Source: Elusimicrobia bacterium GWB2_63_16 (lineage in GTDB: Bacteria; Elusimicrobiota; Elusimicrobia; Elusimicrobiales; UBA9959). Taken from it: a stretch of 58,405 bases of DNA. The notes beneath the pieces were generated by a model. It saw only the letters and a program-made list of their open reading frames with translations, ran no database searches and was not told the origin of the DNA. This document shows, in pieces, positions 7,478 through 29,994 of this stretch. Position 1 is the stretch's first letter. Each line of letters opens with the position of its first letter. A program made the translations under genes and the position numbers. The stretch covers positions 5,293-63,697 of the forward strand of contig MGTZ01000037.1 in the NCBI GenBank assembly GCA_001799715.1, given 5' to 3'.

Positions 7478-9343
7478 TTACCACTGGTAGCGGGAGCGCA
7501 CCTTGGCCAGCCAGGGCGGGGTTTTCTTGGCTATGCCGGCGGCGTAGGCGGCGATGATGGCCTGCACGGGCAGGGCGGCGAAGCCGGCCTTGTGCTCCGG
7601 GGCGAGGCGCAGGCGGTAGCGCTCCATGGGGCCCTGCTGGGGCTGGTTCTCCGGCGAGGGGCGCTCGGCCGTGGTAAGGCTGGTATTGCGGTTGTCGTAC
7701 ACCACCAGCAGCAGCGCCTCGTCGAAGCCGAAGTGCTCCTTTAGGCGCAGCAGGGTGTAATGGCTGCGGTAGAGCTGGTTGACCGGGCCGGCGAACAGGC
7801 AGGCCCCCTCGTGGCCGTCGAGCGGGTTGGGCTTGCCGAACATGTTGTCCAGGTTGAACTCGCCGAAGGCCGGCAGGGCGGCGCCGTGGCGCAGCTGGCA
7901 GAGAGCGCCGCGCTCGCCGTTCTCCAGGCAGGCGTGGCGGCCGGGCTCGGTGTAGGCCGGGTCGGTAAAACCGGCGCAGGCCGCGAACTCGGCTTCGGTA
8001 TATTTAAACTCAACGCCTATGAGGGCGCGCACTTCGCGGCCGTCCTTCAGGCCGGTCACGGCCAGGGCGGCGTCCAGGCCGCGGGCGCGGCCGGTTTCGC
8101 CGGTCAGCTCGGCGAGGTCCGCCTTGGGGAATACGCGCGCCTGGGTCTGGCCGGGCACCGGCTTATGCGGCACCTCGAAGTGGCAATCGGCCACGGCGCT
8201 TATCGTCACCCCCCACGTGGGCGAGACGTTCTCGTTGAGGGCCTTGATCAGGCCGGCGATGGCGGTCTCGTTCCTGGCGAAGACCGGCGCCAACGCCTGC
8301 GCGCAGGCCGTCTGCGAGCTGCGCGGGTTCTTGGCCCGGGCGTGCAGCGCCAGGCCGTTATGCTTGGAATAGTCGTTGAGCAAGTTGTCGAAACCGCCGG
8401 GCTGGGTCAGCTTGGGCAGTGCGGCCCAGGCGGCCTGGTGGGCGTCGGCCAGGCGGGTGAAGGCGTTCACGCGCGGCTTGCGGGGCAAATAGGCCGCGCG
8501 GGGGCTGGTAAGGGCCTTCTCGAGGAAGTTAACGAGCGGCTGGAAGTCGGCGGCCTTGAGCGGCGCCACCCCGCCCAGCAGGGCGCACTGGCAGTCGGGC
8601 AGGTCGGCCGGGGTAAGGCAGGCCAGGCGGCCGTAGGCGTCATAGGCCTGGCCAAGGATCAGCAGGCTTTTGTCGCTGATGCCTTTTATCTCGAAAGCTT
8701 CGGTATTGAGCACGCCGAGGGCGCTCTTCTGGGCGAACAGCTGCTGATAATGCTTGAGGAAGATGGCCTCGCCACCCTTTACGGCGGCGGGCAGGGCGCG
8801 CACGGCCTTAAGGCGGGCCATGGCCGCGCCGTCGAGGTCAGCGCTGGAGGCGAACTCCAGCGACAGCAGTACCAGCTGGGCGGTGGCTTTCTCGATCAGC
8901 AGCAGGTCTACGCGGGTGGCCTGCTGGCCTTTGTCGGCCAGGGCTTCCTGCGGCACCTGCACCTGCTCGTCGAGCACGGTGAAATCTTCGCGCTTGCGCA
9001 GCAGCTCCCAGGCCAGCAGCGCCTGCTGCACCGGCTCCTGGCCGGACATCTTGTTCTTCTCCACGTACTCCATCACGGCGCGGCGGCCTTTCTTGAGCTG
9101 AATGGTAAGCCCCTCGGCGTCCACGCCTTTTACCGCCTCCCGCCCGAAGAGCTTGGTGTATTCTTCCGTCGAGCCTAGTTCGCCCAGCTCCAGGGCTTTC
9201 TGGCCCAGGTAGTAGAAGGCCACGGTATTGTTGGGGCGCAAATGCACTATGGAGCCCGGCGTGCTCTGCCAGTTGAACAGGTTGTCTTTTAAAAGCTGGG
9301 CCTTTTCGAAGGCGGTTTGGTTGAGGAATCTTTTGAAGGCCAT
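7478..9343 (-). CDS. Large uncharacterised protein with PD-(D/E)XK nuclease-like motifs
   Basis: I place the start at the ATG 9341-9343 (MAFKRFLNQTAFEK), which has a GGAG site 7-8 bases upstream; an upstream ATG at 9412 has none and would overlap a terminator. The 621-residue protein is not recognised with certainty. Two regions look like PD-(D/E)XK nuclease cores: residues 146-165 (DLLLIEKATAQLVLLSLEF, with the final lysine missing) and residues 424-447 (LDAALAVT, then IGVEFKY, giving D424 and E445-x-K447). The C-terminal part has a cysteine cluster (FAACAGF, HACLENGERGALC) as in some restriction-endonuclease-like families. No methylase or phage gene is nearby. DNA cleavage or repair is a guess. 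Confidence 0.45.
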   Translation of the reverse strand: MAFKRFLNQTAFEKAQLLKDNLFNWQSTPGSIVHLRPNNTVAFYYLGQKALELGELGSTEEYTKLFGREAVKGVDAEGLTIQLKKGRRAVMEYVEKNKMSGQEPVQQALLAWELLRKREDFTVLDEQVQVPQEALADKGQQATRVDLLLIEKATAQLVLLSLEFASSADLDGAAMARLKAVRALPAAVKGGEAIFLKHYQQLFAQKSALGVLNTEAFEIKGISDKSLLILGQAYDAYGRLACLTPADLPDCQCALLGGVAPLKAADFQPLVNFLEKALTSPRAAYLPRKPRVNAFTRLADAHQAAWAALPKLTQPGGFDNLLNDYSKHNGLALHARAKNPRSSQTACAQALAPVFARNETAIAGLIKALNENVSPTWGVTISAVADCHFEVPHKPVPGQTQARVFPKADLAELTGETGRARGLDAALAVTGLKDGREVRALIGVEFKYTEAEFAACAGFTDPAYTEPGRHACLENGERGALCQLRHGAALPAFGEFNLDNMFGKPNPLDGHEGACLFAGPVNQLYRSHYTLLRLKEHFGFDEALLLVVYDNRNTSLTTAERPSPENQPQQGPMERYRLRLAPEHKAGFAALPVQAIIAAYAAGIAKKTPPWLAKVRSRYQW

Positions 9344-9416
9344 TGTTTCTCCGGACGGCTGAATATATGTAATTCTACCTTTTATCCCCCCGGCAGCGGG
9401 GTTTATAACCAAATGA

Positions 9417-9441
9417 AAAACCCGGCGCGGGGCCGGGTTTT
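9417..9441 (-). terminator. Intrinsic terminator after tldE
   Basis: A 10-bp perfect stem (AAAACCCGGC with GCCGGGTTTT) with a GC-rich 5-base loop and T-runs on both sides lies between tldE and the downstream nuclease-like gene. Confidence 0.85.
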
Positions 9442-9460
9442 CCTTGGGGCTTGGGCAGGC

Positions 9461-10684
9461 CTAGTTCTTGCGCACGTCCATCATGAAGCCCAGCCAGCGG
9501 TTGCCGCTGAGCGGCATTACGGGGTCGCTGGAGACGCCCAGGAAGTCCTTGCCGAACATCTCGTAGACGCCGGAGGACAGCTGCAGCTCCGGCAGGCGGC
9601 CCACCAGCCGGCCGTCCTCTACCAGGAAAGCCACCTGCGCCGGCGTGCCGAAACCGCCCTGGCTGGTATAATCCCCGCCCATGGCCATACTCACAAAGAT
9701 GGCCGGCCGGCCGCCCAGCATCTCTCTGAAGGTCCTGGCCTGGCTTTGTATGCGCATATTGCCGGGGTTGGCGTCGGGCGTGCCGTCGTAGGCGGCCGTA
9801 GCGCTGCCGCTCGGCTCGTAGCCGAACTTGGCGGCCGTCTTCTTGTCGGCGTAGGGCGCGCGCAGCACGCCGTTCTCGATGTATTTAAAGCCCTCGCCGC
9901 AGACGCCCTCGGCGTCGAAGAAAGGCCTGAAGGCCTGGCCGGGGCTGTTGTAGAGCGTAAAGCCCTCGTTGAACAGGCGCTGGCCGAGCTTGCCGGAGAA
10001 CAGCGAGCTGCCCGAGCCGAGGGTCATGCCCGAGAGCTCCCTGAAGAAGATGTTCCTGAGCTGGCTGTCGTTCTCTTCGAAGAACACCGACAGGCGGCCC
10101 TCGGCCGGCAGCGGCACCTCGCGCAGGTGGGCGGCCAGCATTTCGGAGCCGTAGGCCTGGAAGGCGGCCCGGTCATACCCGGTGCCGGTATAGGAGAACC
10201 AGCCGTCCAATATGCTCGACGACGAGGCCAGCTTGTAGAAGAAGGTGAACTCGTGCGTGGTGATGGAAGAGGCGTAGTCCAGCCCGGCGTCGTTGCGCAT
10301 GCTCCGGCGGCTGGTGCCGGTCTTGATGCCCGACGAGGAATAGACGAATTGCGGGAAATCCTTGCGGAAGGCGGCCAGCAGGGCCGCCGCCTCGGCGTCC
10401 AGCGCCTGCGGCGTGAAAGGGCGGCCGCCTACGGTCTCGGCGCGCCGAGAGCCGGTGGAAGGCCGGCCGGGATAGGGGATCTTATAGCCGAGCGCCGCGG
10501 CGGCGCGCTCGCGGGCGGCGGCCTCCCCCTCCGTGCCCATATAGCCCGAGACGCCTATGCAGCCGTCGCGATAAACCCGCACGCCGGTGCGGCTGATGCT
10601 CTTGGCGCGCAGCGACTCCAGGGCCGAGGCGGAGAGCTTAATGGAGACTTCGTCTTCGACGGAAGAAATGGTTTCGTTGATCAT
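9461..10684 (-). CDS. tldE: TldE/PmbA-type metalloprotease subunit
   Basis: The 407-residue protein matches the TldE/PmbA half of the TldD/TldE protease, which processes modified peptides (microcin B17, PQQ precursor in other bacteria). Visible family features are an N-terminal domain with SIKLSASALESLRAKSISRTGVRVYRDG, a central GSGSSLFSGKLGQ, and the C-terminal NRWLGFMMDVRKN-type end of the PmbA/TldE fold. It lacks the zinc HExxxH motif, as TldE should. It lies 6 bases downstream of tldD and forms the heterodimer with it. The natural substrate in this organism is not apparent because no RiPP precursor gene is nearby. Confidence 0.85.
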   Translation of the reverse strand: MINETISSVEDEVSIKLSASALESLRAKSISRTGVRVYRDGCIGVSGYMGTEGEAAARERAAAALGYKIPYPGRPSTGSRRAETVGGRPFTPQALDAEAAALLAAFRKDFPQFVYSSSGIKTGTSRRSMRNDAGLDYASSITTHEFTFFYKLASSSSILDGWFSYTGTGYDRAAFQAYGSEMLAAHLREVPLPAEGRLSVFFEENDSQLRNIFFRELSGMTLGSGSSLFSGKLGQRLFNEGFTLYNSPGQAFRPFFDAEGVCGEGFKYIENGVLRAPYADKKTAAKFGYEPSGSATAAYDGTPDANPGNMRIQSQARTFREMLGGRPAIFVSMAMGGDYTSQGGFGTPAQVAFLVEDGRLVGRLPELQLSSGVYEMFGKDFLGVSSDPVMPLSGNRWLGFMMDVRKN

Positions 10685-17165: not shown

Positions 17166-18422
17166 CTATCGAGGCGAAGCCTCGACAGCCTTGGCTTGTC
17201 TGTAGGCCTCTAAAGCGGCCGGGAAGGGGCTCAGGACGCGTTCCAGCACGCCTTTGCACTCCGAGATAGCCGTGCCGTAGTTGGTGATGGGTATGCCCGC
17301 CGCGGCGGCCTTGCCCATGCGGCCCAGTATCTCGGTGCGGCCCAGCATGCAGCCGCCGCATTGTATGGCCAGCTTATAATCGCCGAGGCCGGCCGGTATG
17401 TCGTGGCCGGCGAAGGTGTCGATCTTGAGATCGCCTTTAACGGTCTCGCGCAGCCAGCGCGGCAGCTTCACGCGGCCTATGTCGTCCTCTATGGCGTGGT
17501 GGCTGCAGCCTTCCAGCACCACCACCTTGTCGCCCGGGAGCAGCGAGCGGATGGCCGCGGCGCCGGCGGCGTAGGCGGCGAGATCGCCCTTGAAGCGGGC
17601 GAACAGGATGGAGAAGGTGGTGCAGGGCACACCGGGCGGCGTGTGCTCCACCATGAAGTCCACCACCTGCGAGTCGCAGACCACCAGGGCCGGCGGCTCT
17701 TTGAGGGCCGCGAGGGCCTGGGGATACTCGTGCTCGCGGCAGGTCAGGAAGAGCGCGCCGTGGTCGAGCAGGTCGCGCATGGCCTGCACCTGCGGCAGGA
17801 TGATGCGGCCCTTGGGGGCTTCCTTGTCTATGGGGATGATGAAGACTACGGTCTGGCCGGGACGCACCAGGTCGCCGAGTATGGCCTTGGGGCCGGCGGC
17901 GGCCTGCGTGATCTTGAGCAGGCGGCTCTTGATGGCCGAGACGGTGAGTTCGCCGAGGCTGCGGGTAAGGGCCGAGCAGAGTATGGGCTCCAGGTTGCGC
18001 TCCCGGAGCGCGGCCAGCAGTTCCGCCGACGGGGCGGCTATGTCGGTCTTGTTGACCAGCACTATCAGCGGTATATGCTTCTCGCGGGCGGCGGCGGCGA
18101 TCTCGCTCTCGCAGTCCCCCCAGCCGTAGGGCTCTACCACCAGCAGCGCCACGTCGGCGCGGTCGAAGATGCGGCGGGCGCGCTCGGTACGCTTGCCGCC
18201 CAGCTCGCTCTTGTCGTCCAGGCCGGCGGTGTCTAAAAAGACCACGGGGCCCACGGGCAGCAGCTCCATGCTCTTCTCCACCACGTCGGTGGTGGTGCCG
18301 GGCACCGGCGAAGTGATAGCCACGTCCTGGCCGGCCAGCAAATTGAGCACGCTGGACTTGCCGACATTGGTCCGCCCGAAGATGGCGATCTGAAGCCGCA
18401 GGGATTTAGGGGTGGTGTTCAT
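17166..18422 (-). CDS. hydF: [FeFe]-hydrogenase maturation GTPase HydF
   Basis: The start is taken at ATG 18420-18422 (MNTTPKSLRLQIAIFGRT), with GGAG a few bases upstream; a longer frame to 18506 runs back through the repeat and is unlikely. The 418-residue protein has a GTPase domain (P-loop FGRTNVGKSS, switch DTAGLDD, LVNKTD), a dimerisation domain, and the C-terminal cluster-binding domain with CSHH and, 40-50 residues later, QCGGC, corresponding to CxH and (H)CxxC, with Gln in place of the second His. HydF is the scaffold that carries the 2Fe precursor made by HydE and HydG to apo-HydA. The C-terminal residues EASPR are encoded by a 21-bp repeat. It is the last gene of the operon. Confidence 0.95.
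   Translation of the reverse strand: MNTTPKSLRLQIAIFGRTNVGKSSVLNLLAGQDVAITSPVPGTTTDVVEKSMELLPVGPVVFLDTAGLDDKSELGGKRTERARRIFDRADVALLVVEPYGWGDCESEIAAAAREKHIPLIVLVNKTDIAAPSAELLAALRERNLEPILCSALTRSLGELTVSAIKSRLLKITQAAAGPKAILGDLVRPGQTVVFIIPIDKEAPKGRIILPQVQAMRDLLDHGALFLTCREHEYPQALAALKEPPALVVCDSQVVDFMVEHTPPGVPCTTFSILFARFKGDLAAYAAGAAAIRSLLPGDKVVVLEGCSHHAIEDDIGRVKLPRWLRETVKGDLKIDTFAGHDIPAGLGDYKLAIQCGGCMLGRTEILGRMGKAAAAGIPITNYGTAISECKGVLERVLSPFPAALEAYRQAKAVEASPR
17167..17187 (-). repeat. 21-bp palindromic repeat, copy 2 (orientation B, two mismatches)
   Basis: This is the inverted form of copy 1 with two substitutions. It overlaps the last seven codons of hydF and provides its stop codon, giving the C-terminal residues EASPR. 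Confidence 0.8.
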
Positions 18423-18432
18423 AAAATCTCCG

Positions 18433-18481
18433 TATCGAGGCTTCACCTCGATAGCGCAGCTATCGAGGTGAAGCCTCGATA
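18433..18481. repeat. Inverted pair of the 21-bp repeat: perfect 23-bp hairpin between hydE and hydF
   Basis: Copy A (18433-18453) and its exact inverse copy B (18461-18481) are separated by GCGCAGC; the flanking GC pairs extend the stem to 23 bp with a 3-base loop. Copy B encodes the last residues of HydE (IEASPR) and its stop. On the transcribed minus strand no T-run follows, so it is not a standard terminator; mRNA processing, mRNA protection or attenuation of hydF relative to upstream genes are possible roles. Confidence 0.85.
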
Positions 18482-19467
18482 GACTTGAGCGTGTGGCCGT
18501 AGCCACTGGCGCGGCGGCGGCCCAGGGAGACCAGCATGGCGTCCACGCAGCCGGCGCACTGCTCCGGCGCCTCGTTGGTACAGATCTTGCCGGGGTAAAG
18601 GCTGTAATCCACGCGGTGCTCCTTAGGGCTGATATTGGGCATCAGCACGTTGGCGCCGCAGCGCAGGGCCTTCTGGCGGCCCTGCGGGTCTATGCTGCCC
18701 ATGGCCGTGGTGGCGGGGATATGGGTGTTGCGGGTGACTATGCGGGTGAGGGCCACCATGCGCAGCCCGAGGTCCAGCGTGCCGCCCACGGCGCCGGCCA
18801 TGGGCGTGTCGGGGTTGGCGATGAAAGGGCCTATGCCCACCATGTCCAGCTCGAGCTGCCTGAACAGCAGTATGTCGTCGGCCATGCTCTCAAGGGTCTG
18901 GCCGGGCAGGCCGGCCATTACGCCGGAGCCCACCTGGAAGCCGGCCTCTTTGAGCCAGGCCAGGCAGCGGAAGCGGTTGTCGTAGTCCGAGTCGGGCTTG
19001 AGCATGCTGAACAGGCGGCGGTCGGAGGTTTCGAAGCGCAGGAGAAAGCGGTCGGCCCCGGCGGCGCGCAGCAGTTTATAATCCTCTTTGGTATGCTCGC
19101 CGACGGACAGGGTGATGGCCAGGCCGGTCTCCCGCTTGACCTCGGCCACTATGTCGGCCAGCTGGCGCGGCCCCCAGTGGTTGTCCTCGCCGGACTGCAT
19201 CACTATGGTCTTGTAGTCCAGCCGGGCCGCGGTGCGGGCGCAGTCGAGGATCTGGGCGGGAGTGAGGCGGTAGCGGCGCACCTTGGCATTGCCGGCGCGG
19301 ATGCCGCAATAGTAGCAGCGGCGGCGGCAATGGTTGGAGAACTCAATAAGGCCGCGCAGGTGCACGCCGTCGCCCATCTCCTCGCGGCGTACACGGTCCG
19401 CCTCGGCGAAGAAGGGCGCGGGGTCGGTGTCCTGGGACAGCGCTTTTACCAGTTCTTCCTTTTTCAT
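18460..19467 (-). CDS. hydE: [FeFe]-hydrogenase maturase, radical SAM HydE
   Basis: The 335-residue protein has the radical SAM cluster motif CRRRCYYC (CxxxCxxC) after IEFSNH, the usual HydE sequence context GIRAGNAKVRRYRL, VMQSGED and GLPGQT, and the second, non-essential cluster motif CTNEAPEQCAGC (Cx7CxxC) near residue 305. HydE takes part in building the azadithiolate bridge of the H-cluster 2Fe subcluster. It lies 6 bases after hydG on the same strand. Its stop codon lies inside a 21-bp repeat, so the C-terminal IEASPR is repeat-derived. Confidence 0.95.
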   Translation of the reverse strand: MKKEELVKALSQDTDPAPFFAEADRVRREEMGDGVHLRGLIEFSNHCRRRCYYCGIRAGNAKVRRYRLTPAQILDCARTAARLDYKTIVMQSGEDNHWGPRQLADIVAEVKRETGLAITLSVGEHTKEDYKLLRAAGADRFLLRFETSDRRLFSMLKPDSDYDNRFRCLAWLKEAGFQVGSGVMAGLPGQTLESMADDILLFRQLELDMVGIGPFIANPDTPMAGAVGGTLDLGLRMVALTRIVTRNTHIPATTAMGSIDPQGRQKALRCGANVLMPNISPKEHRVDYSLYPGKICTNEAPEQCAGCVDAMLVSLGRRRASGYGHTLKSIEASPR

Positions 19468-19473
19468 ATAGCC

Positions 19474-20952
19474 TCAGAAGCAGAGGTCCCGCTCGCCTTT
19501 TTCGATGCGGTCGTAGTAGGCCTCCAGCATTTTTACCGTTTCGGGCGGGAAGTGGGCGGAGCGGGCGCGGATCTCTCCTGTTTCCTTCTTTATCAGGGCT
19601 TCGCCCTTGGCCTTGGTGGCGTCGGAGGCGAAGTCGTCCAGCCATTCGCGGAAGGTGAGCACGGCGTTGAGCTTGCAGAAGCGGCTCTCGTGGCCGCTCT
19701 TGAGCAGCTTCATGATATGGTCGCCGGTGCGGCCGCAGCGGTAGCCCGAGGTGCAGAAGGAGGTGATGTGGCCCAGGTCGGCGAGTTCGCCGATCACCTC
19801 GTCGAGGGAGCGGGTGTCGCCCAGGATGAACTGCTGCTTCTCGGCTTCCTGCGCGCCGGCGCGCTCGGAGTAGGCGCCGATGCCGATGCGGGTGCTGGCG
19901 TCGCGCTGGGTGCACATGCCGATGACCTCGCGGATGGTTTCCGGGCGCTCGCGGGCGGTGACTATCATGCCGGCGTAAGGCACGGCGAGGCGCAGCACGG
20001 CCACCAGTTTTTTGAAGTCCGCGTCGGAGACGTTCTTGAGGCTGTCGGCGGGCAGGCTGGTGCCGTCGGCGTTCTCGAGGCGCGGGAAGGAGATGGTATG
20101 CGGGCCGATGCCGAAGCGGGCTTCCAGCTCGCGGGCGTGGGCGACCAGGCCCAGCACCTCGAACTTCCAGTCGGGGTTGAGGCCGAACAGGGCGCCCAGG
20201 GCCACGTCGTCTATGCCGGCCTTGAAGGCGCGGTGCATGACGTACAGGCGCCAGCGGTAGTCGGCCTTGGGGGTGCCGCCGGGATGCAATCTGGCGTACA
20301 GCTCGCGGTCATAGGTTTCCTGGAAGACCTGGTAGGTGCCTATGCCGGCGGTCTTGAGGACTTTCAAGTCCTCCACGCTCATGGGGGCGGCGTTGACGTT
20401 GACGCGGCGGATCTGGCCGTAACCTTTGCGGGTGGGCACTTTTACGTCGTAGATGGTCCGCATGGCCTCGGCGATATACTGGGCGCCGGTGGCGGGATGC
20501 TCGCCGGTGACGAAGATGATGCGCTTGTGGCCGATGCGGCCGGCCAGGGCTTCCGCCTCGGCCTTGATCTCCGGCAGGGTGAGCTTGCGGCGCACGGCGC
20601 CGGCATTGCCGGTGCGAAAGCCGCAGTAGAGACAGTTGTTGACGCAGAAGTTGCTGGCGTACAGCGGGGCGAAGGTGATGACGCGGTTGTCGTAGACCTT
20701 GCGCTTTACGTCGCGGGCGGCCTGGAAGATCTCCTCGAGCAGGCCGGGGTCCTCCACGGCCAGCAGGGCGGCGGCGTCCTCCGGCGGCAGCGCCTCGGAG
20801 ACGGCCAGCGACCGGGCCAGGATAGCGCGCACGCGCCCGGCCGTCGGGGCCGGGGCGGCCAGGGCCGCTTTAAGGGCGGCGTCGTCTATGAAATCCTTGC
20901 CGCCCCTGAGATAATCGGCGTAGGTGTCTGCGTTTACGGCAACGGTCTGCAT
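19474..20952 (-). CDS. hydG: [FeFe]-hydrogenase maturase, radical SAM tyrosine lyase HydG
   Basis: The 492-residue protein has the SAM cluster motif CVNNCLYCGFR (CxxxCxxC) near residue 110 and the extended HydG C-terminus FCTSGYRCGRTGDHIM, then RFCKLNAVLTFREWL. HydG cleaves tyrosine to supply the CO and CN ligands of the H-cluster. The C-terminal auxiliary cluster motif is usually described as Cx2Cx22C; here the outer cysteines keep the 25-residue spacing but the middle one has moved (Cx5Cx19C). It lies in the operon between the receiver-kinase hybrid and hydE, with a 6-base gap to hydE. Confidence 0.93.
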   Translation of the reverse strand: MQTVAVNADTYADYLRGGKDFIDDAALKAALAAPAPTAGRVRAILARSLAVSEALPPEDAAALLAVEDPGLLEEIFQAARDVKRKVYDNRVITFAPLYASNFCVNNCLYCGFRTGNAGAVRRKLTLPEIKAEAEALAGRIGHKRIIFVTGEHPATGAQYIAEAMRTIYDVKVPTRKGYGQIRRVNVNAAPMSVEDLKVLKTAGIGTYQVFQETYDRELYARLHPGGTPKADYRWRLYVMHRAFKAGIDDVALGALFGLNPDWKFEVLGLVAHARELEARFGIGPHTISFPRLENADGTSLPADSLKNVSDADFKKLVAVLRLAVPYAGMIVTARERPETIREVIGMCTQRDASTRIGIGAYSERAGAQEAEKQQFILGDTRSLDEVIGELADLGHITSFCTSGYRCGRTGDHIMKLLKSGHESRFCKLNAVLTFREWLDDFASDATKAKGEALIKKETGEIRARSAHFPPETVKMLEAYYDRIEKGERDLCF

Positions 20953-20972: not shown

Positions 20973-22157
20973 TCAGGCCTTCAGCGCGGGCTCGGCGGCC
21001 GGCGCGGGTACCGCGGCGTCCTTCAGCGACAGCTCGAAGGACGAACCCTCCCCGTACTTGGACTGCACCTTTATCTCCCCCCCGTAAAGCTTTACCACCT
21101 TCTTAAGGATGGACAGGCCGAGGCCGCTGCCGTCGATATTGCGGGTGTGCTCGTTCTTCATGCGCACGAACTCGCCGAACAGCTTGGCCAGCTCCTCGTC
21201 GGTCATGCCGATGCCGGTGTCGGAGCAGCGCACGGTCACGGTATCGCCGTCGCGGTTGAGTTCCAGCGTGGCCTTGCCGCCCTGTTTGTTGTATTTGACG
21301 GCGTTGGTGAGCAGATTGGACAGTATCATGTCCGCCTCGCCGGGGTCGGCGTTGAGCATTACCGACGGCGGGGCCTTGAGCTCCACCTGCACCTGTTTCG
21401 CCTCGGCCAGCGCGGCGACGTTCTCCATTACCAGGCCGGCGGTCTTGACCAGGTCCACGGGCTCGATGGCACGCTTCTTCTTGCCGGACTCCAGGCGGGT
21501 GAGGTCCAGCAGGTCCATCACCAGCTTGCGCATGCCGGCTATGCGCACCACCGAGCGGTCCACCATGGAATCGTAGGCGGCCAGCTCGGGGCCCTTCAGG
21601 CGCTCCCGCATTAGGTGCATATAGCCCTCTACGGCGGCCAGCGGGCTCTTGAGCTCGTGCGCCAGCACGCTGATGAACTCGAAACGCACCTGGCGCTTCT
21701 CTTCCTCCAGGCGGCGGGCCTTACGGTGCAGGTAGATGCTGCGGGCGGCCTTGCTGATGGTGGCGCGCAGTTCCTCCGGCGTGAACGGCTTGGCCAGGAA
21801 ATCGAAGGCGCCGCGCTTGGTGGCGGTGACGGCCACCTCGAGCGAGGCGAAGGCGGTGATCATGATGGTGAGGAAATCCCCCGCCGGGTAGGCGGCCAGC
21901 ACGTCTATGCCGGTCATGTCGGGCAGCTTATAGTCGAGCAGCAGGATGTCGGGGCTCCTGGCCTTGAGCTGGTCGAGCGCCTCGCCGCCGGTGGCGGCGG
22001 TGCGCACGGTGAAGGTGACGGTCTCGCTGAAGTCGGGCAGCGGCACCGAGAAGCCCTCGAGGGAGCGTTCGGCGCCGGCGCGCATGCCGGCCTCGTCGTC
22101 GACGATGAGGACGTCCAGCGCGTGGACGGGCAGGGGGTCAGGAGGCATGGCGCTCAC
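20973..22157 (-). CDS. Hybrid receiver-histidine kinase (REC-HisKA-HATPase)
   Basis: The 394-residue cytoplasmic protein begins with a receiver domain (acidic pair D20/D21, phospho-acceptor D75 in LLLDYKLPD, lysine K123 in FLAKPF), then a dimerisation domain with H167 in VLAHELKSPLAAVEGY, and an HATPase domain with VKYNKQGG (N-box), DTGIGM and GSGLGLSI. There is no membrane helix or other input domain, so the input is presumably phosphate from another kinase, most simply the HydS-like kinase encoded two genes upstream. Its start overlaps the preceding receiver gene by 20 bases. The output partner is not evident. Confidence 0.9.
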   Translation of the reverse strand: MSAMPPDPLPVHALDVLIVDDEAGMRAGAERSLEGFSVPLPDFSETVTFTVRTAATGGEALDQLKARSPDILLLDYKLPDMTGIDVLAAYPAGDFLTIMITAFASLEVAVTATKRGAFDFLAKPFTPEELRATISKAARSIYLHRKARRLEEEKRQVRFEFISVLAHELKSPLAAVEGYMHLMRERLKGPELAAYDSMVDRSVVRIAGMRKLVMDLLDLTRLESGKKKRAIEPVDLVKTAGLVMENVAALAEAKQVQVELKAPPSVMLNADPGEADMILSNLLTNAVKYNKQGGKATLELNRDGDTVTVRCSDTGIGMTDEELAKLFGEFVRMKNEHTRNIDGSGLGLSILKKVVKLYGGEIKVQSKYGEGSSFELSLKDAAVPAPAAEPALKA

Positions 22158-22551
22158 CCGCGCCCAGCAGGCGCTTCAGCTCGGCCTTGAGCTGCTCGAA
22201 GCGCAGCTCCTTGTGGATGATGGCGTCGGCCTTGATCCAGTCCTTCGGGTCGTGGGCCTTGTCGAAATAGTAGCCGGTCTCCTTGGTGACCGACGTGACG
22301 ATGACGACGGGGATCTTCGGGTCCATCTTCTTGATCTTGTGGCTGAGGACGAAGCCGGAGTCCGGGTTCTCCATCATCAGGTCCAGGACGGCGGCACGGA
22401 ACCTGCCGGGCGCGATGAGCGGCTCGGCGTCCTTCTGCGTGGAGGCGGCGACCACCTCGTAGCTCTCGCTCTCGAGGTAGACCTTCATCTGTTCCATCAT
22501 ATCGGGGTCGTCTTCCACCACGAGGATCTTTATCTTGTTCTGGTCGGTCAT
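22138..22551 (-). CDS. Single-domain response regulator
   Basis: The 137-residue protein is a lone receiver domain: VVEDDPDMM (acidic pair), phospho-acceptor in AAVLDLMMENPDSGF, conserved Thr/Ser in IVTSVT and lysine in IIHKEL. There is no DNA-binding or enzymatic output. It lies directly after the HydS-like sensor kinase gene (24-base gap) and overlaps the hybrid kinase gene, so it may shuttle phosphate between them. The closest relative in the window is the receiver at the head of the operon, which has the same LDxMMxxPxxGF signature. Confidence 0.9.
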   Translation of the reverse strand: MTDQNKIKILVVEDDPDMMEQMKVYLESESYEVVAASTQKDAEPLIAPGRFRAAVLDLMMENPDSGFVLSHKIKKMDPKIPVVIVTSVTKETGYYFDKAHDPKDWIKADAIIHKELRFEQLKAELKRLLGAGERHAS

Positions 22552-22575: not shown

Positions 22576-24609
22576 TCATTTCGCCGCGGGTTCGCTCTTC
22601 ATCCTTATGGCCCCGGCGGCCGTGGCCACGCGGGGCAGCTTTACCGTGAAAGTGGTGCCGGCGGGGCCGGCGGCCGGGTCGGCGTTGCTGGCCACCGTGA
22701 TATTGCCGCGGTGCACCTTGATGATGCCGTAGCTCACGGCGAGGCCGAGCCCGGTGCCCTTGCCGATCTGCTTGGTGGTGAAGAAGGGCTCGAAGATCTT
22801 CTTGAGGTTCTCGGGCCTTATGCCGCAGCCCGAGTCGCTCACGCTGAAGGCCACGCTGTCCCCCTCGGCGAAGGTCCTGATGGTCAGCGCGCCGGTATTG
22901 CCCATGGCCTCGAGGGCGTTGGTGACCAGGTTGGTGAGCACCTGGATGATCTGGTCCGGGTCCATCTCGGCCTGCAGGTCCTCGCCGGAGCGGTCGATGG
23001 TGAACGTCACGGACGGGGGCACGGTGGCGGTCTTGAAATAATTGTCCACCAGGCGCACCAGGCTGGTCTGGCGGAAGAAAGGCTTGTTCTTGCGCGCGAA
23101 GTTGAGCAGCCCGCCCACGATCTTCTTGCAGCGGTCGGCCTGCTCGGTGATCATCCTGGCGTCGGAGAACACGCGCGAGTCCTTGTCGCACTGCTCGGCG
23201 AGCAAATGCGAGTAGAGCAGCACCACGCCGAGCGGGTTGTTGAGCTCGTGCGCCACGCCGGCGGCGAGCTGGCCCATGCTGGCCAGCTTCTCCGACTGCA
23301 TAAGGGCCTGCTTGGTCTTGGCCAGCTGGTTGTAGGAGGTGGTGAGCTCCTCGGCGGTGGTCTTGAGGCGCTCGATGGTATAGGGCAGGCACATCTCGCT
23401 CTCGGCGATGCCGCGGATGATGGCCACGGCGTGCTCGACGCAGGTGGGGTAGCCGCAGGCGCCGCAGTTGAGCTCGTCCTCGGGGTTGGTCTTGCCCATG
23501 TTGGCCAGCACGGCCTGCAGGGCGTCGCCGGCCGGCAACTGCATGCGCTGGTCCTCCGGCTGGAAAGAAGCTGAATAATCCAGGCCGCGGAAGCGCCTGA
23601 CGCTCGCCTCCCAGTCGGAGAGCTTGATGCTGAAGTAGCTCTTGCGGGCGTAGCGGCGCAGGGCGGCCTCGCGGGCGTGCTTGGAGGTCTTGACGCTGAT
23701 GCCGGGGCCCATGATGCAGCCGCTGCAGCAGAGCAGGTCTATGAAATCGGCGTCTATGTCGCCGTGCTCGAGGTTCTTGAGCACTTCGGGGAACTGCTCC
23801 AGGCCCTCGGCGGAGAGGAAGCGGCCGCTGAGCAGGTCCTCCTCGAGCTCGGCGGAGTTGAGCAGGCCGCCGCCCATGGGGTACAGCACGCCCTTGGCGG
23901 GGTAGGGCGGGTCGAACTGCGAGTCCAGCGCGCTATTGCGGTCCACGCCGGCCTCCTTGCACATGGCGCGCAGTTCGGTGAAGGTGATGGATTCGTCCAG
24001 GTCGGCGGGGTGGCGGTCGGTTTCCCCCTTCTTGGCCACGCAGGGGCCGATGAACACCACTTTCACGTCCCGGCCGTAGAGTTCCTTTATGACGCGGGCC
24101 TCGGCCACCATCGGAGACACGATGGGGGCCAGGTTGGGCACCAGGGCCGGGTGGTATTTTTCGACGAAGGAGACCACGGCCGGGCAGGCGGTGCTGATGA
24201 ATTTCTTGCCGGGGTTCTCGTTGAGCAGCTTGCGGTACTGGAAGCTCACCATGTCGGCGCCGAAGGCCACCTCGCAGACGTACTTGAAGCCGAGGGCTTT
24301 AAGGATGCCGGCGAAGCGCAGCGGGTCGATGCCGCCGAACTCGACGGGAAAGCTGGGGGCCAGCGCGGCGGCCACGGGAGCGCCGGACTTGAGCAGGGCC
24401 CGCACGGCCTCTATGGACTGCTTGGTCTCCTTGGCGCCGCGGCTGCACATGAGCACGCAGTTGGCGCAGGAGATGCAGCGCTCCTTTATGACCTCGGCCT
24501 GGCCGCCGGAGATGCGGATGGCCTTGGCGGGGCAGCCGCGGACGCAGGTATAGCACGCTTTGCAGCGTTCCTTTATCGTCCTTACCAGCGGTTCGTTCTC
24601 GGGGGTCAT
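22576..24609 (-). CDS. Sensory [FeFe]-hydrogenase fused to histidine kinase (HydS-like)
   Basis: The 677-residue protein has two [4Fe-4S] motifs (residues 16-26 and 45-55), a [FeFe]-hydrogenase H-domain (about 80-330), a FeS domain with C382, C385, C390 and C407, a short coiled segment, a HisKA domain with H454 in [11 protein letters not shown], and an HATPase domain ending near 660. In the H-domain, TACP (140-143) replaces TSCCP: the proton-transfer Cys is Ala, while the four cluster-ligand positions C142, C189 (GPCVAKKGE), C294 and C298 (CCSGC) are kept. This is the pattern of sensory, slow [FeFe]-hydrogenases. It probably senses H2 or redox state and signals to the neighbouring receivers. 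It lies 36 bases downstream of hydA. Confidence 0.88.
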
Positions 24610-24645: not shown

Positions 24646-26370
24646 CTACGCGATGTCGGACGCCTTGCGCTTCGTATATTTCGTGTGCAGCAGGTGGTGG
24701 CTCTTCTCGCCCAGCGGCTTGCCCAGGAAGTCCTTGTATAGAGCCTGCACGGCCTTGTTGGCGTGCGAGGTGCGCAGTTTCTCGGCGGCGTCGATGGCGT
24801 AGAGGGCCTTCATGCGCTCGATGATGGCGGTCTTGTTGCGCGCGAAGGGCTGGCCGCCGCCGTTGATGCAGCCGCCGGGGCAGGTCATGATCTCGATGAA
24901 GTGCAGGTCCTTGCGGCCGTTCTTGATCTCCTCTACCAGCTTGCGGGCGTTGCCGAGGCCGCTGACGGCGGCCACACCCACTTCGAGCGCGCCGATCTTG
25001 AGCTTGGCTTCCTTGATGCCGGCCTGGCCGCGCACGGCCTCCACCTTGAGGGCGCCGAGTTCCTTGCCGGTGAGCAGGAAATGGGCGGTGCGCAGGGCGG
25101 CCTCCATCACGCCGCCGCTGGCGCCGAACAGTTTGCCGGCGGTGCTGCGGTCGCCGAAGGGCATGTCGGGCTCTTCGGGCTGCAGGGCCTTGAGGTCTAT
25201 GCCGTGGATGCGCAGCAGCTGGGCGAGCTCGCGGGTGGTGAGCACGGCGTCGATGTCGGGGCAGCCCTCGCGGCCCATCTCGGGGCGGGTGACCTCGAAC
25301 TTCTTGGCGGTGCAGGGCATGACCGAGACGCTGTACATTTTGGCGGGGTTAAGCCCCTGCTTCTTGGCGTAGTAGGTCTTGATCATGGCGCCCAGCATCT
25401 GCTGCGGGCTCTTGCAGGTGGAGAGGTTGGGGATGAGCTCGGGGTAGAAGGTCTCGACGAACTTGATCCAGCCGGGCGAGCAGGAGGTGAACATGGGCAG
25501 CGCGCCGCCGTTCTTCACGCGGTGGGCGAGCTCGCTGGCCTCTTCCATGATGGTCAGGTCGGCGGCGAAGCTGGTGTCGAAGACGGCCTTGAAGCCCATC
25601 TTGCGCAGGGCGGCGGTCATCACGCCGTTAACGTCGGTGCCGGCCGGCAGGCCGAACTCCTCGGCCAGCGACACCGAGATGGACGGGGCGTGCTGTACGA
25701 CCACGTACTTGTCCTTGTCGGAGAGCGCCTCCATAACGGGCTGTATGTCGCTCCGCTCCATCAGGGCGCCGGTGGGGCAGACGTTGATGCACTGGCCGCA
25801 GTTGACGCAGGAGGAGACGTTGAGGCTGCTGTCGAAGGCGCAGCCTATGAACGAGTCGGAGCCGCGCTTGACGAAGTCGATGCAGGCCACGCTCTGCGTC
25901 TCCTCGCAGGCGCGCACGCATTTGCCGCACAGGATGCATTTGTCGGGGTCGCGGGAGATGGACGGGCTGGAGATGTCCAGCGGTTTCTTCTTCCTGGCCA
26001 CGGGGAAGCGGCGGCTGGTGACGCCGTAGTCGCGGCTGAGCTTGTTGAGCTCGCAGGTGGGCTGTTTGGCGCAGTACAGGCAGTCGTCGGGGTGGCTGCC
26101 GAGCAGCAGCTCCACCACGGTCTTGCGGGCGTTGATCACGCGCGGGCTGTTGGTGAGGATCTTCATGCCTTCGGCGGCCGGGAACGAGCAGCTGGGGATC
26201 AGGTTGGCCTGGCCGTCCACCTCCACCACGCAGATGCGGCAGGCGCCCGACGGGAGCATGCCTTCCATGTGGCAGAGGGTGGGCACGTGCACGCCCTCGC
26301 GCCTCAGCACGGTGAGCAGGGTTTCCCCCGCCTGGGCCTCTACGTTCTTTCCGTTGACGGTGAGTTTCAT
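24646..26370 (-). CDS. hydA: NADH-linked [FeFe]-hydrogenase catalytic subunit HydA
   Basis: The 574-residue NuoG-like protein has a [2Fe-2S] domain (C33, C44, C47, C61), a His/Cys cluster motif (H93, C97, C100, C106), two [4Fe-4S] motifs (145-155 and 188-198) and the H-cluster domain with TSCSPGW (295-301), MPCTAKKFE (351-359) and TCPGGCINGGGQP (496-508). With HydB and HydC it forms the soluble trimeric enzyme that makes H2 from NADH, possibly together with reduced ferredoxin by electron confurcation, or runs in reverse. The L1 motif has Ser298 where TSCCP has a second Cys. It is 10 bases downstream of hydB. Confidence 0.95.
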   Translation of the reverse strand: MKLTVNGKNVEAQAGETLLTVLRREGVHVPTLCHMEGMLPSGACRICVVEVDGQANLIPSCSFPAAEGMKILTNSPRVINARKTVVELLLGSHPDDCLYCAKQPTCELNKLSRDYGVTSRRFPVARKKKPLDISSPSISRDPDKCILCGKCVRACEETQSVACIDFVKRGSDSFIGCAFDSSLNVSSCVNCGQCINVCPTGALMERSDIQPVMEALSDKDKYVVVQHAPSISVSLAEEFGLPAGTDVNGVMTAALRKMGFKAVFDTSFAADLTIMEEASELAHRVKNGGALPMFTSCSPGWIKFVETFYPELIPNLSTCKSPQQMLGAMIKTYYAKKQGLNPAKMYSVSVMPCTAKKFEVTRPEMGREGCPDIDAVLTTRELAQLLRIHGIDLKALQPEEPDMPFGDRSTAGKLFGASGGVMEAALRTAHFLLTGKELGALKVEAVRGQAGIKEAKLKIGALEVGVAAVSGLGNARKLVEEIKNGRKDLHFIEIMTCPGGCINGGGQPFARNKTAIIERMKALYAIDAAEKLRTSHANKAVQALYKDFLGKPLGEKSHHLLHTKYTKRKASDIA

Positions 26371-26380
26371 GGTTGTATCC

Positions 26381-28339
26381 TTACGCGGCGCTGACGGCCT
26401 TGAACTTGCAGACGGTCCTGCACGAACCGCAGGAGATGCACTTCTCGGCGATGATGTAATGAGGCACCTTGGGCTTGCCGACGATGGCCTGCGTGGGGCA
26501 GCCTTTCACGCACAGCGTGCAGCCCTTGCACTTGTCGGAGTCGATGGAGAACTCCAGCATCTCCGTGCAGGCGCCGGCGGGGCACTTGCGTTCGAAGATA
26601 TGCGCCTCGTACTCGTCGCGGAACCAGCGCAGCGTGGAGAGCACCGGGTTGGGCGCGGTCTGGCCGAGCCCGCACAGGCTGGTCTCGCGGATGACCTGGG
26701 AGAGGTTCTCGAGGTTCATGATGCCGGAGAAGCGGGCCAGGGCGTCGGCGTCCTTCTCGTTGCGGCGGTGGCGGGTGATGGCTTTGAGGATCTCCAGCAT
26801 GCGCAGCGTGCCCTCGCGGCACGGGATGCACTTGCCGCAGCTCTCGCGCTTGATGAAGTCCATGAAGAACTTGGCCACGTCGACCATGCAGGTCTTCTCG
26901 TCCATGACAACGAGCCCGCCGGAGCCCATCATGGCGCCCACGGTCTTGAGGGACTCGTAGTCCACCTGGATATCGATGTGGCTCAGGGGGATGCAGCCGC
27001 CGGAGGGGCCGCCGATCTGCACGGCCTTGAAGGCCAGGCCGTTCTCTATGCCGCCGCCGATGTCGAAGACGATCTCCTTGAGGGTGGTGCCCATGGGGAT
27101 CTCCACGAGGCCGGTGCGGTTGACCTTGCCTGACAGGGCGAAGACCTTGGTGCCCTTGCTGCCCTTGGTGCCGATGGCCGCGAAAGCCGCGGGCCCCTGG
27201 CTCATGATCTCGGGCACGTTGGCGAAAGTCTCGACGTTATTGATGACGGTGGGCTTGCCGAACAGGCCCTTCACCGCCGGGTAGGGCGGGCGGGGCCTGG
27301 GCATGCCGCGGCGGCCCTCGATGCTGTTCATCAGGGCGGTCTCCTCGCCGCAGACGAAGGCGCCGGCGCCCATCTTGATGATGACGTCGAGGTCGAAGCC
27401 GCTGCCGTAGATGTTCTCGCCCAGCAGGCCGTAGGCCTTGGCGTCGGCGATGGCTTTCTTCAGGTTCTTGATGGCCAGCGGGTACTCGGCGCGGATATAG
27501 ACGTAGGCCTTGCTGGCGTGGATGGCGTAGGCGCCGATGGCGATGCCTTCGAGCACGCGGTGCGGGTCGCCCTCGATGACCGAGCGGTCCATGAACGCGC
27601 CCGGGTCGCCCTCGTCGGCGTTGCAGATGATGTATTTCTGGTCGGCGTCGCTGGCGAGCGCGATCTTCCACTTCTTGCCCGTCGGGAAGCCGCCGCCGCC
27701 GCGGCCGCGCAGGCCGCTGGCCTCCACCGCGTCGCAGGCCTGGGCCGGGGTCATCGTGTGTATAACTTTAAGAAAAGCCCCGTAGCCGCCGCGGGCGATA
27801 TGCTCCTGTATTGAGTTCGGGTCCACGATGCCGACGTGCTTGAGCACGAAGCGCAGCTGCTTGCCGAAGAAAGGGTGTTCGCTCAACAGCGGCACCTTGG
27901 GCCAGCGTTTCCCCCCGTCCTCGAACTGCCCCAGGACCTGGTCCTTGAGCGGGGCCTTGTCCCTGAAAACGGAATCCAGCAGGGCCGGCACGGTGTCGCC
28001 GGTGGCGCGCAGGAAAGAGACGCGGGCCTGGCCGGGCAGCTGCACGTCGAGCAGCGGCTCCACGGCGCACAGGCCGATGCAGCCCACTTCCAATATATCG
28101 GCCTCGAGCTTGCTGTCCTTGAGATACTTCTTCGCGGCTTCCAGCGTCTTGGCGGCGCCGGCGGCCAGGCCGCAGGTGCCGGCTCCGACGTAGATCATGG
28201 GGCGGGCGAGGGTTTCGCGGCGCAGCTCGGCCGCCTTGGCGGCATAGTCCTCGCTCCCGAAGGCTCGGACCAGGAAGGCCTTGCGGGCCGAGGCCGTGAG
28301 GCCGGCGAGGTTGCGGTCGATGAGGTCTTTATTTGCCAT
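26381..28339 (-). CDS. hydB: NADH-linked [FeFe]-hydrogenase flavoprotein subunit HydB (NuoF-like)
   Basis: The 652-residue protein has an N-terminal thioredoxin-like [2Fe-2S] domain (GTCGLAAGA and GCIGLC), the NuoF core with FMN site GLRGRGGGGFPTGKKW and NADH-site regions NADEGDPGAF and GAGAFVCGEETALMNSIEG, the [4Fe-4S] motif CGKCIPCREGT, and two C-terminal [4Fe-4S] motifs (CKGCTLCVKGC and CISCGSCRTVC). This is the long HydB form of trimeric, often electron-bifurcating, hydrogenases. It oxidises or reduces NAD(H) and passes electrons to HydA. It overlaps hydC by 11 bases. Confidence 0.95.
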   Translation of the reverse strand: MANKDLIDRNLAGLTASARKAFLVRAFGSEDYAAKAAELRRETLARPMIYVGAGTCGLAAGAAKTLEAAKKYLKDSKLEADILEVGCIGLCAVEPLLDVQLPGQARVSFLRATGDTVPALLDSVFRDKAPLKDQVLGQFEDGGKRWPKVPLLSEHPFFGKQLRFVLKHVGIVDPNSIQEHIARGGYGAFLKVIHTMTPAQACDAVEASGLRGRGGGGFPTGKKWKIALASDADQKYIICNADEGDPGAFMDRSVIEGDPHRVLEGIAIGAYAIHASKAYVYIRAEYPLAIKNLKKAIADAKAYGLLGENIYGSGFDLDVIIKMGAGAFVCGEETALMNSIEGRRGMPRPRPPYPAVKGLFGKPTVINNVETFANVPEIMSQGPAAFAAIGTKGSKGTKVFALSGKVNRTGLVEIPMGTTLKEIVFDIGGGIENGLAFKAVQIGGPSGGCIPLSHIDIQVDYESLKTVGAMMGSGGLVVMDEKTCMVDVAKFFMDFIKRESCGKCIPCREGTLRMLEILKAITRHRRNEKDADALARFSGIMNLENLSQVIRETSLCGLGQTAPNPVLSTLRWFRDEYEAHIFERKCPAGACTEMLEFSIDSDKCKGCTLCVKGCPTQAIVGKPKVPHYIIAEKCISCGSCRTVCKFKAVSAA

Positions 28340-28811
28340 TGGAGTTCTCCGCCTTCTTGAAATCTTCCACCAGCCGGCGCAGCTTGTCGGCGTTGACCTT
28401 GGCGTGGAACTCGCCGTTGACGCTGATCACCGGGGCCAGGCCGCAGGCGCCGATGCAGGCCACCACTTCTATGCTGAACAGCCCGTCGCGGGTGGTGTCG
28501 CCGGCCTTGATGCCCAGAACTTCCTCGCACATCTTGAGCACCGCGGCCGAGCCCTTGACGTGGCAGGCGGTGCCGCGGCAGATCATGATGTGGTACTTGC
28601 CCACCGGCTTGAAGCGGAACTGGTTGTAGAAGGTGGCCACGCCGTAGACCTTGCTGGCGGGGATATCGAGGTGCTTGGCCACTTTCAGGGCGGCAGGCTT
28701 GGAAATGAAGCCGTCGGCCGCCTGCACGTCCTGCAGTATCGGGATCAGCTTGTCGCGCTTGGCGAAGCTGTAATTCTCGAGGACTTTTTCCACTTTGCTC
28801 GGTGCGCTCAT
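28329..28811 (-). CDS. hydC: NADH-linked [FeFe]-hydrogenase subunit HydC (NuoE-like)
   Basis: The 160-residue protein is a thioredoxin-like [2Fe-2S] protein of the NuoE family: helical N-terminus (LIPILQDVQAADGFISKPAA, VYGVATFYNQFRF) and four cluster cysteines in CRGTACHVKG and CIGACGLAPV. It is the smallest subunit of the HydABC hydrogenase. It overlaps rex by 4 bases and hydB by 11, so the three are translationally coupled. Confidence 0.95.
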   Translation of the reverse strand: MSAPSKVEKVLENYSFAKRDKLIPILQDVQAADGFISKPAALKVAKHLDIPASKVYGVATFYNQFRFKPVGKYHIMICRGTACHVKGSAAVLKMCEEVLGIKAGDTTRDGLFSIEVVACIGACGLAPVISVNGEFHAKVNADKLRRLVEDFKKAENSNGK

Positions 28812-29449
28812 TTCAGTCGCTCCTTGACGGAATTCTTGCGGGCGAAATACGCCACTTTTTCTATCGAGAGGGTTATATCGAGCTGCTCCAGGAAGATGCC
28901 GGGCGGCACCTTGAGCTGCACCGGGGCGAAGTTCACGATGCCCCGCACGCCGGCGCGCACCAGCGCGTCGGCCGCCTCCTGGGCGGTGGAGGCGGGCACC
29001 GTGACGATGCCCACCGCCGCCTTCTCCCGCGCTACGGTCTTTTCCAGCTGGCCTATATGGTGCACCTGGCAGCCCGAGTAGACCCGGTTGACCTTCTCCG
29101 GGTCCTGGTCGAAGGCCGCCACGATGGAGAGGTTGGGCCTGCGCTTGAGGAAGTAGGACAGTATGGCTTTTCCGAGGTTTCCCACCCCCACCAGCACCAT
29201 CTTGGTCAGGGACGAAGATTCAAGGTGCGCGTACAGCTCGGCCATGAATTCCTTGATGGGGTAGCCCCGCTGAGGGGTGCCCTTCAGCTCGAAGTTCATC
29301 AGGTCGCGCCGCACCTGTTCCGGGGAGACGCCCACCGCCGCCGCCAGCTCGTGCGAGAACACGTACTCGGAGCCGGTCTCCAGCCTGTTGTGCAGGAACT
29401 GGCAGTAGCGGAAGAATCTCTCTACGGTGCGCTGGGGTATCTTCGTCAT
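28808..29449 (-). CDS. rex: Redox-sensing transcriptional repressor Rex
   Basis: The 213-residue protein has an N-terminal winged helix (residues 1-80: PQRTVERFFRYCQFL, AAVGVSPEQVRRDLMNFE, RGYPIKEF) and a Rossmann domain starting VLVGVGNLGKAIL, with FDQDPEKV and the C-terminal swapped helix LDITLSIEKVAYF. Rex binds DNA when NAD+ is abundant and releases it when NADH accumulates, which would switch on this hydrogenase operon when reductant is in excess. It is encoded in the operon it probably controls; a palindrome just downstream of the predicted transcription start is a candidate operator. Confidence 0.93.
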   Translation of the reverse strand: MTKIPQRTVERFFRYCQFLHNRLETGSEYVFSHELAAAVGVSPEQVRRDLMNFELKGTPQRGYPIKEFMAELYAHLESSSLTKMVLVGVGNLGKAILSYFLKRRPNLSIVAAFDQDPEKVNRVYSGCQVHHIGQLEKTVAREKAAVGIVTVPASTAQEAADALVRAGVRGIVNFAPVQLKVPPGIFLEQLDITLSIEKVAYFARKNSVKERLK

Positions 29450-29457
29450 ATATCTCC

Positions 29458-29874
29458 TTACCTGGTGCGGCCTTCCACGTTGACCTGTTCCTTCTTAAGC
29501 GCCAGTAATTCCTTCACCTTGACCAGGAATTCCTTGGGCTTTATGGGTTTCTCCATGAAGGCGTCCACTGGCAGGAATTCCCCGTCCTTCTCTCCGAACT
29601 TCTGGGGCGAGGTCTCGTTGACCGAGGTGAGCATCAGGATGGGGACGTACCTGAGGGTCTCGGTGCGGCGGAACTTCTGCGCCGTGGCGAAACCTTCGGT
29701 GGGATCGTCCATCATGACGTCCAGCACTATCAGGTCGGGTTGCAGCTTGGAGGCCTTTTCGAACCCCTCTTTGCCGTTGATCGCCGTAACAACGGTGTGG
29801 CCAACCCCCTGCAGCACCACTTCGCAGGTGTCCAGGATGTCTTTGTCGTCGTCTATGCAGATTATCTTAGCCAT
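29458..29874 (-). CDS. Single-domain response regulator, first gene of the hyd operon
   Basis: I start at ATG 29872-29874 (MAKIICIDDDKDIL) because GGAGG lies 6 bases upstream; a longer frame to 29922 lacks a site. The 138-residue protein is a receiver domain with ICIDDDKD, phospho-acceptor in LIVLDVMMDDPTEGF, LMLTSVN and FMEKPIKP. No output domain is attached. Its position ahead of rex and hydCBA, and its similarity to the receiver beside the HydS-like kinase, suggest it belongs to the same phosphorelay. Confidence 0.9.
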   Translation of the reverse strand: MAKIICIDDDKDILDTCEVVLQGVGHTVVTAINGKEGFEKASKLQPDLIVLDVMMDDPTEGFATAQKFRRTETLRYVPILMLTSVNETSPQKFGEKDGEFLPVDAFMEKPIKPKEFLVKVKELLALKKEQVNVEGRTR

Positions 29875-29922
29875 ACTATCCTCCGGGTCTTGTCGTTCAG
29901 ATTGTAACGCTGCCTGCCGCAT

Positions 29923-29951
29923 CGTTATTTAATAACGTTATTCCGTTAACG
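29923..29951 (-). promoter_or_regulatory. Candidate operator (Rex-type?) of the hyd operon
   Basis: A perfect palindrome CGTTATT-T-AATAACG (29923-29937) and an adjoining CGTTAACG (29944-29951) lie within 40 bases downstream of the predicted transcription start. Rex boxes in other phyla are palindromes such as TTGTTAA-N4-TTAACAA, so the GTTA/TAAC half-sites are compatible; assignment to Rex is inference. Confidence 0.5.
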
Positions 29952-29965
29952 TTGACTATGAAAAT

Positions 29966-29994
29966 AGTATACGTCATCGTTTGCGTTTTGTCAA
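29966..29994 (-). promoter_or_regulatory. Near-consensus sigma70 promoter of the hyd operon
   Basis: On the minus strand TTGACA (29989-29994) and TATACT (29966-29971) are 17 bases apart. The start of transcription is expected near 29959, giving a leader of about 85 bases containing the palindromic operator. Confidence 0.85.

Follow-up and report, generated by a model that had tools for sequence, protein, structure and literature searches.

The window, the whole 58,405-nucleotide stretch of DNA analysed here (Elusimicrobia bacterium GWB2_63_16, contig MGTZ01000037.1), contains eleven same-strand genes that span 29922 to 17166 and lie at most 36 bp apart. They encode, in order, a receiver (REC), Rex, HydC, HydB, HydA, a sensory [FeFe]-hydrogenase joined to a histidine kinase (hydS-HK), another REC, a receiver-histidine kinase hybrid (REC-HK), HydG, HydE and HydF, and from this spacing we infer that they are cotranscribed as one operon.

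29458..29922 (likely start 29874), minus strand: second stand-alone receiver, first gene of the operon (Pfam, relatives)
28808..29449, minus strand: Rex redox repressor, the operon's sole DNA-binding protein (NCBIfam Rex models above cut-off)
28329..28811, minus strand: HydC, NuoE-like (Pfam, NCBIfam)
26381..28339, minus strand: HydB, NuoF-like with a ferredoxin domain (Pfam, NCBIfam)
24646..26370, minus strand: HydA, catalytic group A [FeFe]-hydrogenase (NCBIfam group A6 model, 822 bits against a cut-off of 765)
22576..24609, minus strand: hydS-HK, sensory [FeFe]-hydrogenase plus histidine kinase (ORF, Pfam, AF2, full-length homologues in many phyla)
22138..22551, minus strand: stand-alone REC lacking an output domain (Pfam Response_reg only; conserved neighbour)
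20973..22157, minus strand: REC-HisKA-HATPase hybrid lacking a DNA-binding domain (Pfam; conserved neighbour)
19474..20952, minus strand: HydG maturase (NCBIfam above cut-off)
18460..19467, minus strand: HydE maturase (NCBIfam above cut-off)
17166..18506, minus strand: HydF maturase GTPase (NCBIfam above cut-off)

Judged from relatives, the more probable start of the first receiver is 29874 (MAKIICIDDD), not the upstream ATG at 29922. HydA (AF2 model with a pLDDT of 72.8) and hydS-HK are the only two Fe_hyd_lg_C genes in this genome. The P1 motif of HydA reads TSCSPGW, with Ser at the position of CpI ligand C300, and this Ser is shared by 12 of the 15 aligned HydA proteins of its group.

Two elements lie in front of the first receiver gene.

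29966..29994, minus strand: consensus σ70-type promoter TTGACA-N17-TATACT, upstream of the first receiver
29936..29951, minus strand: palindrome CGTTA-N6-TAACG just past the -10 element, a Rex-box-like operator candidate (conservation)

A matching TTGACA-N17 promoter precedes all of the Elusimicrobia operons compared (14/14), and no σ54-type promoter was found in the upstream regions of the operon. The palindrome recurs in 13 of the 14, where it lies 43 bp downstream of the first base of the -35 box and has a variable spacer. In other phyla, several loci have TGTGA-N6-TCACA or TGTTA-N6-TAACA palindromes close to the beginning of this operon. The 2.87 Mb genome holds a single CGTTA-N6-TAACG site, approximately the number expected by chance, so the case for this palindrome comes from its positional conservation, and the idea of a genome-wide regulon was dropped. 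We take the palindrome to be a Rex operator because it resembles the known Rex box, a reading that fits with the operon encoding no DNA-binding protein other than Rex. Rex, responding to NADH/NAD+, probably controls transcription of the operon through this conserved site.

The hydS-HK open reading frame extends from the ATG at 24609 to a stop at 22576 and encodes 677 aa with the following features.

24433..24579, minus strand: two-cluster ferredoxin domain, residues 11-59, C16/19/22/26 and C45/48/51/55 (Pfam Fer4 dicluster)
23704..24378, minus strand: H-cluster domain Fe_hyd_lg_C, residues 78-302 (Pfam, E 1.8e-47)
23716..23727, minus strand: shortened P3 motif C295-S-G-C298, Cx2C instead of Cx3C (alignment)
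23383..23472, minus strand: C-terminal FeS domain PF04060, residues 380-409, C382/C385/C390/C407 (Pfam)
23191..23388, minus strand: continuous predicted helix, residues 408-473, from the FeS domain to the phospho-acceptor helix (AF2 model)
23086..23277, minus strand: HisKA, residues 445-508, with phospho-acceptor H454 at 23248-23250 (Pfam)
22630..22962, minus strand: HATPase_c, residues 550-660 (Pfam, E 6e-26)

A sequence-only reading of this DNA had placed the gene at 22576-24609, which is correct once the minus strand is added, and its assignment of a ferredoxin-like domain, an H-cluster domain, an RnfB-type FeS domain and a complete HisKA-HATPase kinase to one chain is matched throughout by Pfam. 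The TACP motif with its Ala (residues 140-143) and H454 lie where that reading put them, and the proposed operon with a catalytic HydA, maturases, two receivers and a receiver-kinase is seen at the locus, an association that is kept across phyla. The claim that all four ligand cysteines of the H-cluster are present holds for C142, C190, C295 and C298, found in the motifs T140-A-C142-P, G188-P-C190 and C294-C295-S-G-C298, except that the last two are one residue closer together than usual. By motif alignment with CpI, C299 is replaced by A141, M353 by G188, and the M497 position by Leu, all of them sensory-type substitutions. The C-terminal FeS domain has its cysteines in exactly the Cx2Cx4Cx16C spacing published for sensory hydrogenases of groups C and D (PMC8163306), and these four residues are kept in 63/63 kinase-fused proteins (see below). 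The H, N, G1 and G2 boxes of the kinase were all found, and no PAS domain, which characterizes group C (M2f), was matched by Pfam in hydS-HK.

These features also bear on whether hydS-HK could be a second catalytic hydrogenase with an appended regulatory kinase. The ligand set is complete, and slow H2 turnover is known from two related sensors, TmHydS and TamHydS (PMC8163306, PMC10055695), yet the proton-relay Cys and the M353 and M497 equivalents are lost, a separate full HydA is encoded in the same operon, and the sensor module exists elsewhere without any HydA (L199, below), so we regard this possibility as very improbable.

An AF2 model of hydS-HK, built from a 29-row alignment, has a mean pLDDT of 83.7, with values of 90-97 across most of the H-domain. 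In this model a single helix starts at residue 408, one residue past the last FeS ligand C407, and runs through H454 to residue 473, with confidence falling to 47-54 around residues 430-460, at the FeS-DHp junction. Foldseek matched the front half of the protein to CbA5H, bifurcating HydABC and CpI, and the kinase half to ZraS; the cytoplasmic domain of the latter (PDB 9jfj) resembles the kinase half by phmmer (E 3e-34) and is attached to an unrelated sensor.

Kinase-fused HydS proteins were found at 63 loci in about nine phyla, with full-length homologues in Elusimicrobiota, Planctomycetota, Fermentibacterota, Myxococcota, Bacteroidota, Ignavibacteriota, Fidelibacterota (Neomarinimicrobiota), Hydrogenedentota and Acidobacteriota, so the same domain order that the sequence-only reading proposed to look for in other genomes is indeed present. 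These proteins form one clade with support of 97/97 in a tree calculated without the P3 columns. Invariant in 63/63 are C142, C190, C295, C298, K193/K194/E196, the H box and the G2 box, and no homologue whose sequence extends over the eight N-terminal cluster Cys (61-62 of 63) lacks any of them. The position of CpI C299 is variable (A 23, T 14, S 13, P 12, D 1) and is never Cys.

The most distinctive feature of this clade is its P3 motif. Across 117 sequences aligned together with HydA, P3 is C-x2-C in 63/63 kinase-fused proteins versus C-x3-C, the general [FeFe]-hydrogenase form from which hydS-HK departs, in 53/53 sequences outside the clade; the no-kinase grouping used in this comparison and in the tree denotes sequences with no match to the kinase half of the window's protein, and includes rows of the C1-like type described below. 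Recruitment of C294 as a ligand that would restore Cx3C was ruled out, since this column is Cys in only 34/63 (F 21, A 6, S 2) and C295 is Cys in 63/63. The view that Cx2C is a general mark of kinase fusion was also rejected, because the C1-like PAS-kinase fusion L126 has Cx3C. One kinase-less sensor with Cx2C (L024, 3378-5252) adjoins a SpoIIE gene and nests inside the clade; in this Bacteroidales protein the kinase boxes are gone, which, with its SpoIIE neighbour, gives the appearance of an output switch. The same locus encodes a HydA (8231-9970) with odd H-cluster motifs, IATHCPSW and LTTCTARKEE, unlike those of every other HydA in the set. The Cx2C of the fused clade is apparently unreported, as no report was found in the searchable literature, a body that mostly leaves out subscription journals. 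With its missing residue between two H-cluster ligands, the clade offers a natural test of how far this active site can change.

With P3 a residue shorter than in every sequence compared outside the clade, it is uncertain whether the H-cluster assembles fully, and hydS-HK could instead be a redox sensor in which ferredoxin-type clusters report on the ferredoxin/NADH pool, perhaps via HydABC or ferredoxin, and the H-domain carries a [4Fe-4S] cluster with a non-functional [2Fe] subsite or none. The clade-wide Cx2C, the invariant N-terminal cluster Cys and the consistent loss of Cys from the proton-relay position are all in line with such a role. However, the pocket residues of the H-domain and the linkage to maturases are strongly conserved, the module is also found at a [NiFe]-hydrogenase operon, and Ala is the commonest residue at the CpI C299 position in known sensors, one of which, TmHydS with A131, is active as an enzyme (PMC10055695). 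We therefore consider sensing of redox state rather than H2 unlikely, though deserving of serious attention.

Kinase fusion beside a bifurcating hydrogenase is already described: a 2024 survey of Hydrogenedentota reported a kinase-fused 'group C3' sensor, BfuT, next to BfuABC in a sub-type V arrangement (BfuTABC) of Hydrogenedentota and Calditrichota (PMC11406978). Judged by its operon and by the Hydrogenedentota locus L041, hydS-HK is of this kind, a group C-type sensor with a histidine kinase next to bifurcating A3 genes; the L041 protein is about 50% identical to it over the full length and has the same neighbours. The notion that the fusion is unprecedented was ruled out by this survey and by about 30 full-length relatives obtained at the first search. 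Nor are the Ala and the additional FeS domain unexpected, both being ordinary in group C/D sensors (PMC10055695; PMC8163306). The main text of the survey does not mention receivers or a receiver-kinase, and no mention of Cx2C was found in it; the present analysis adds fused proteins of further phyla. A search at 1e-60 for BfuT relatives in 98 genomes of the phylum of the Calditrichota-titled locus, run without a positive control, gave no match. As far as checked, what is new is the clade-wide Cx2C, the pairing of fused and non-kinase sensors with REC/REC-HK versus SpoIIE partners, the breadth across phyla and a [NiFe]-linked copy.

Several known sensors share the core of hydS-HK but differ in their output. 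TmHydS of Thermotoga maritima (group C), compared via its published residues, shares the two N-terminal clusters, Ala at CpI C299 and a C-terminal FeS domain, but it ends in a PAS domain and lacks the kinase in which hydS-HK ends (PMC10055695). TamHydS of Thermoanaerobacter mathranii (group D) has the same Cx2Cx4Cx16C spacing, also lacks proton-relay residues and is encoded upstream of a bifurcating hydrogenase (PMC8163306, PMC13104023), but its chain contains neither PAS nor kinase, and a kinase-like ATPase is encoded by a separate flanking gene. HydS of Ruminococcus albus 7 (L081) has the full sensory core, is 36% identical and lies near Rex, but lacks a kinase, has SpoIIE as its next gene and has a Cx3C P3 motif. 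These best-studied sensors have no output enzyme in the chain, and a sensor that has an output kinase of its own makes signal transfer directly measurable in one purified protein.

HydDB divides putative sensory [FeFe]-hydrogenases linked to signalling into C1 (histidine kinase-linked), C2 (chemotactic) and C3 (phosphatase-linked) (PMC5037454, 2016). By architecture, L126 (PAS-HisKA-HATPase) is C1-like, and L152, L154 and L155 (with MCP-signalling domains) are C2-like. The kinase linkage that defines C1 is present within the hydS-HK chain, but the C1-like L126 falls outside its clade, which differs from the C1-like type in lacking PAS and in its Cx2C, and which stands apart in the tree from both C1-like and SpoIIE-linked sequences. 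The adjacent SpoIIE-type phosphatase of C3 is absent from all 63 fused loci. L126, L184, L152, L154 and L155 belong to a distant lineage of sensory hydrogenases in which P3 takes the form LIDCLNCxxGCNGG.

Partner genes were counted at 104 sensory-type loci (63 fused and 41 non-kinase). Kinase-fused sensors lie beside REC and/or REC-HK at 62/63 loci and beside a SpoIIE phosphatase at none (0/63), versus 38 of 41 non-kinase loci beside SpoIIE, counts that do not represent independent events because the relatives share ancestry. A PAS domain is present in most of the non-kinase homologues scanned. This split suggests that output domain and partner genes change together, and the near-perfect pairing offers a clear rule by which the H2-response circuits of uncultured bacteria can be interpreted. 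The usual gene order, in nearly all relatives, is (Rex)-HydC-HydB-HydA-HydS.HK-REC-REC.HK, and in several Bacteroidota a second stand-alone receiver, kin of the first REC in the window, follows REC-HK.

A genome of the window genome's family (G087) contains a second module, REC-HydS.HK-REC.HK-REC (L199, 1208-9960), that leads straight into antiporter-, NuoH-, NuoB- and NuoD/NiFe-like genes. Both CxxC nickel motifs of the large subunit are intact (CGIC and DPCISC), so this enzyme reads as a group 4-type [NiFe]-hydrogenase. The position of the module in front of it indicates a link to hydrogenases as such, and that the module is no part of the HydABC enzyme.

Taken together, we consider it somewhat probable that hydS-HK is a group C/D-type sensory [FeFe]-hydrogenase with its own histidine kinase as output, acting as an H2-responsive kinase that would feed a receiver/receiver-kinase relay. 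In such a pathway, HydEFG would assemble the H-cluster, as related HydS enzymes carry active H-clusters when purified (PMC8163306, PMC10055695). Binding or oxidation of H2 there, with electrons passing to the N-terminal clusters, could then make the H and FeS domains change shape. A simple electron relay via the C-terminal cluster is doubtful, since that of TamHydS is not reduced by H2 (PMC13104023). The conformational change may travel by the continuous helix, about residues 408-473, into the phospho-acceptor helix, where it would set the kinase/phosphatase balance at H454. From there, phosphoryl groups could reach one or both stand-alone receivers as well as the receiver part of REC-HK, and the relay may adjust hydrogenase expression or activity, last steps that are proposed from sequence and gene order.

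Because the operon encodes no DNA-binding response regulator, the final output would be either a regulator encoded elsewhere or control at the protein level. A variant of the favoured explanation is that the kinase is mainly a controlled phosphatase or an input to REC-HK, with an output that regulates the hydrogenase, or motility, at the protein level and not through transcription. By Pfam, none of the operon's three receivers has an output domain, and the same holds for the Bacteroidota and Planctomycetota partners examined, which argues for this variant. On the other hand, stand-alone receivers are able to feed distant partners, and three strong PF00158 matches elsewhere in the genome mark NtrC-type regulators as possible targets. 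We view protein-level output as a credible possibility, at somewhat below even chances.

More tentatively, and with still less confidence, Cx2C may define a distinct H-cluster variant in which the geometry, or the occupancy of the subsite, is altered. This variant would be a conformational switch, responsive to H2 or redox state, for the kinase directly joined to it, within a portable module of four genes (for the sensor kinase, two receivers and the receiver-kinase) that would act on [FeFe]- and [NiFe]-hydrogenases without a transcription factor of its own.

HydB is encoded by an open frame of about 1000-1200 aa in L010, L023 and L193-L196, and the HydB of L196 has an added pyridine-nucleotide oxidoreductase/Fer4_20 module.
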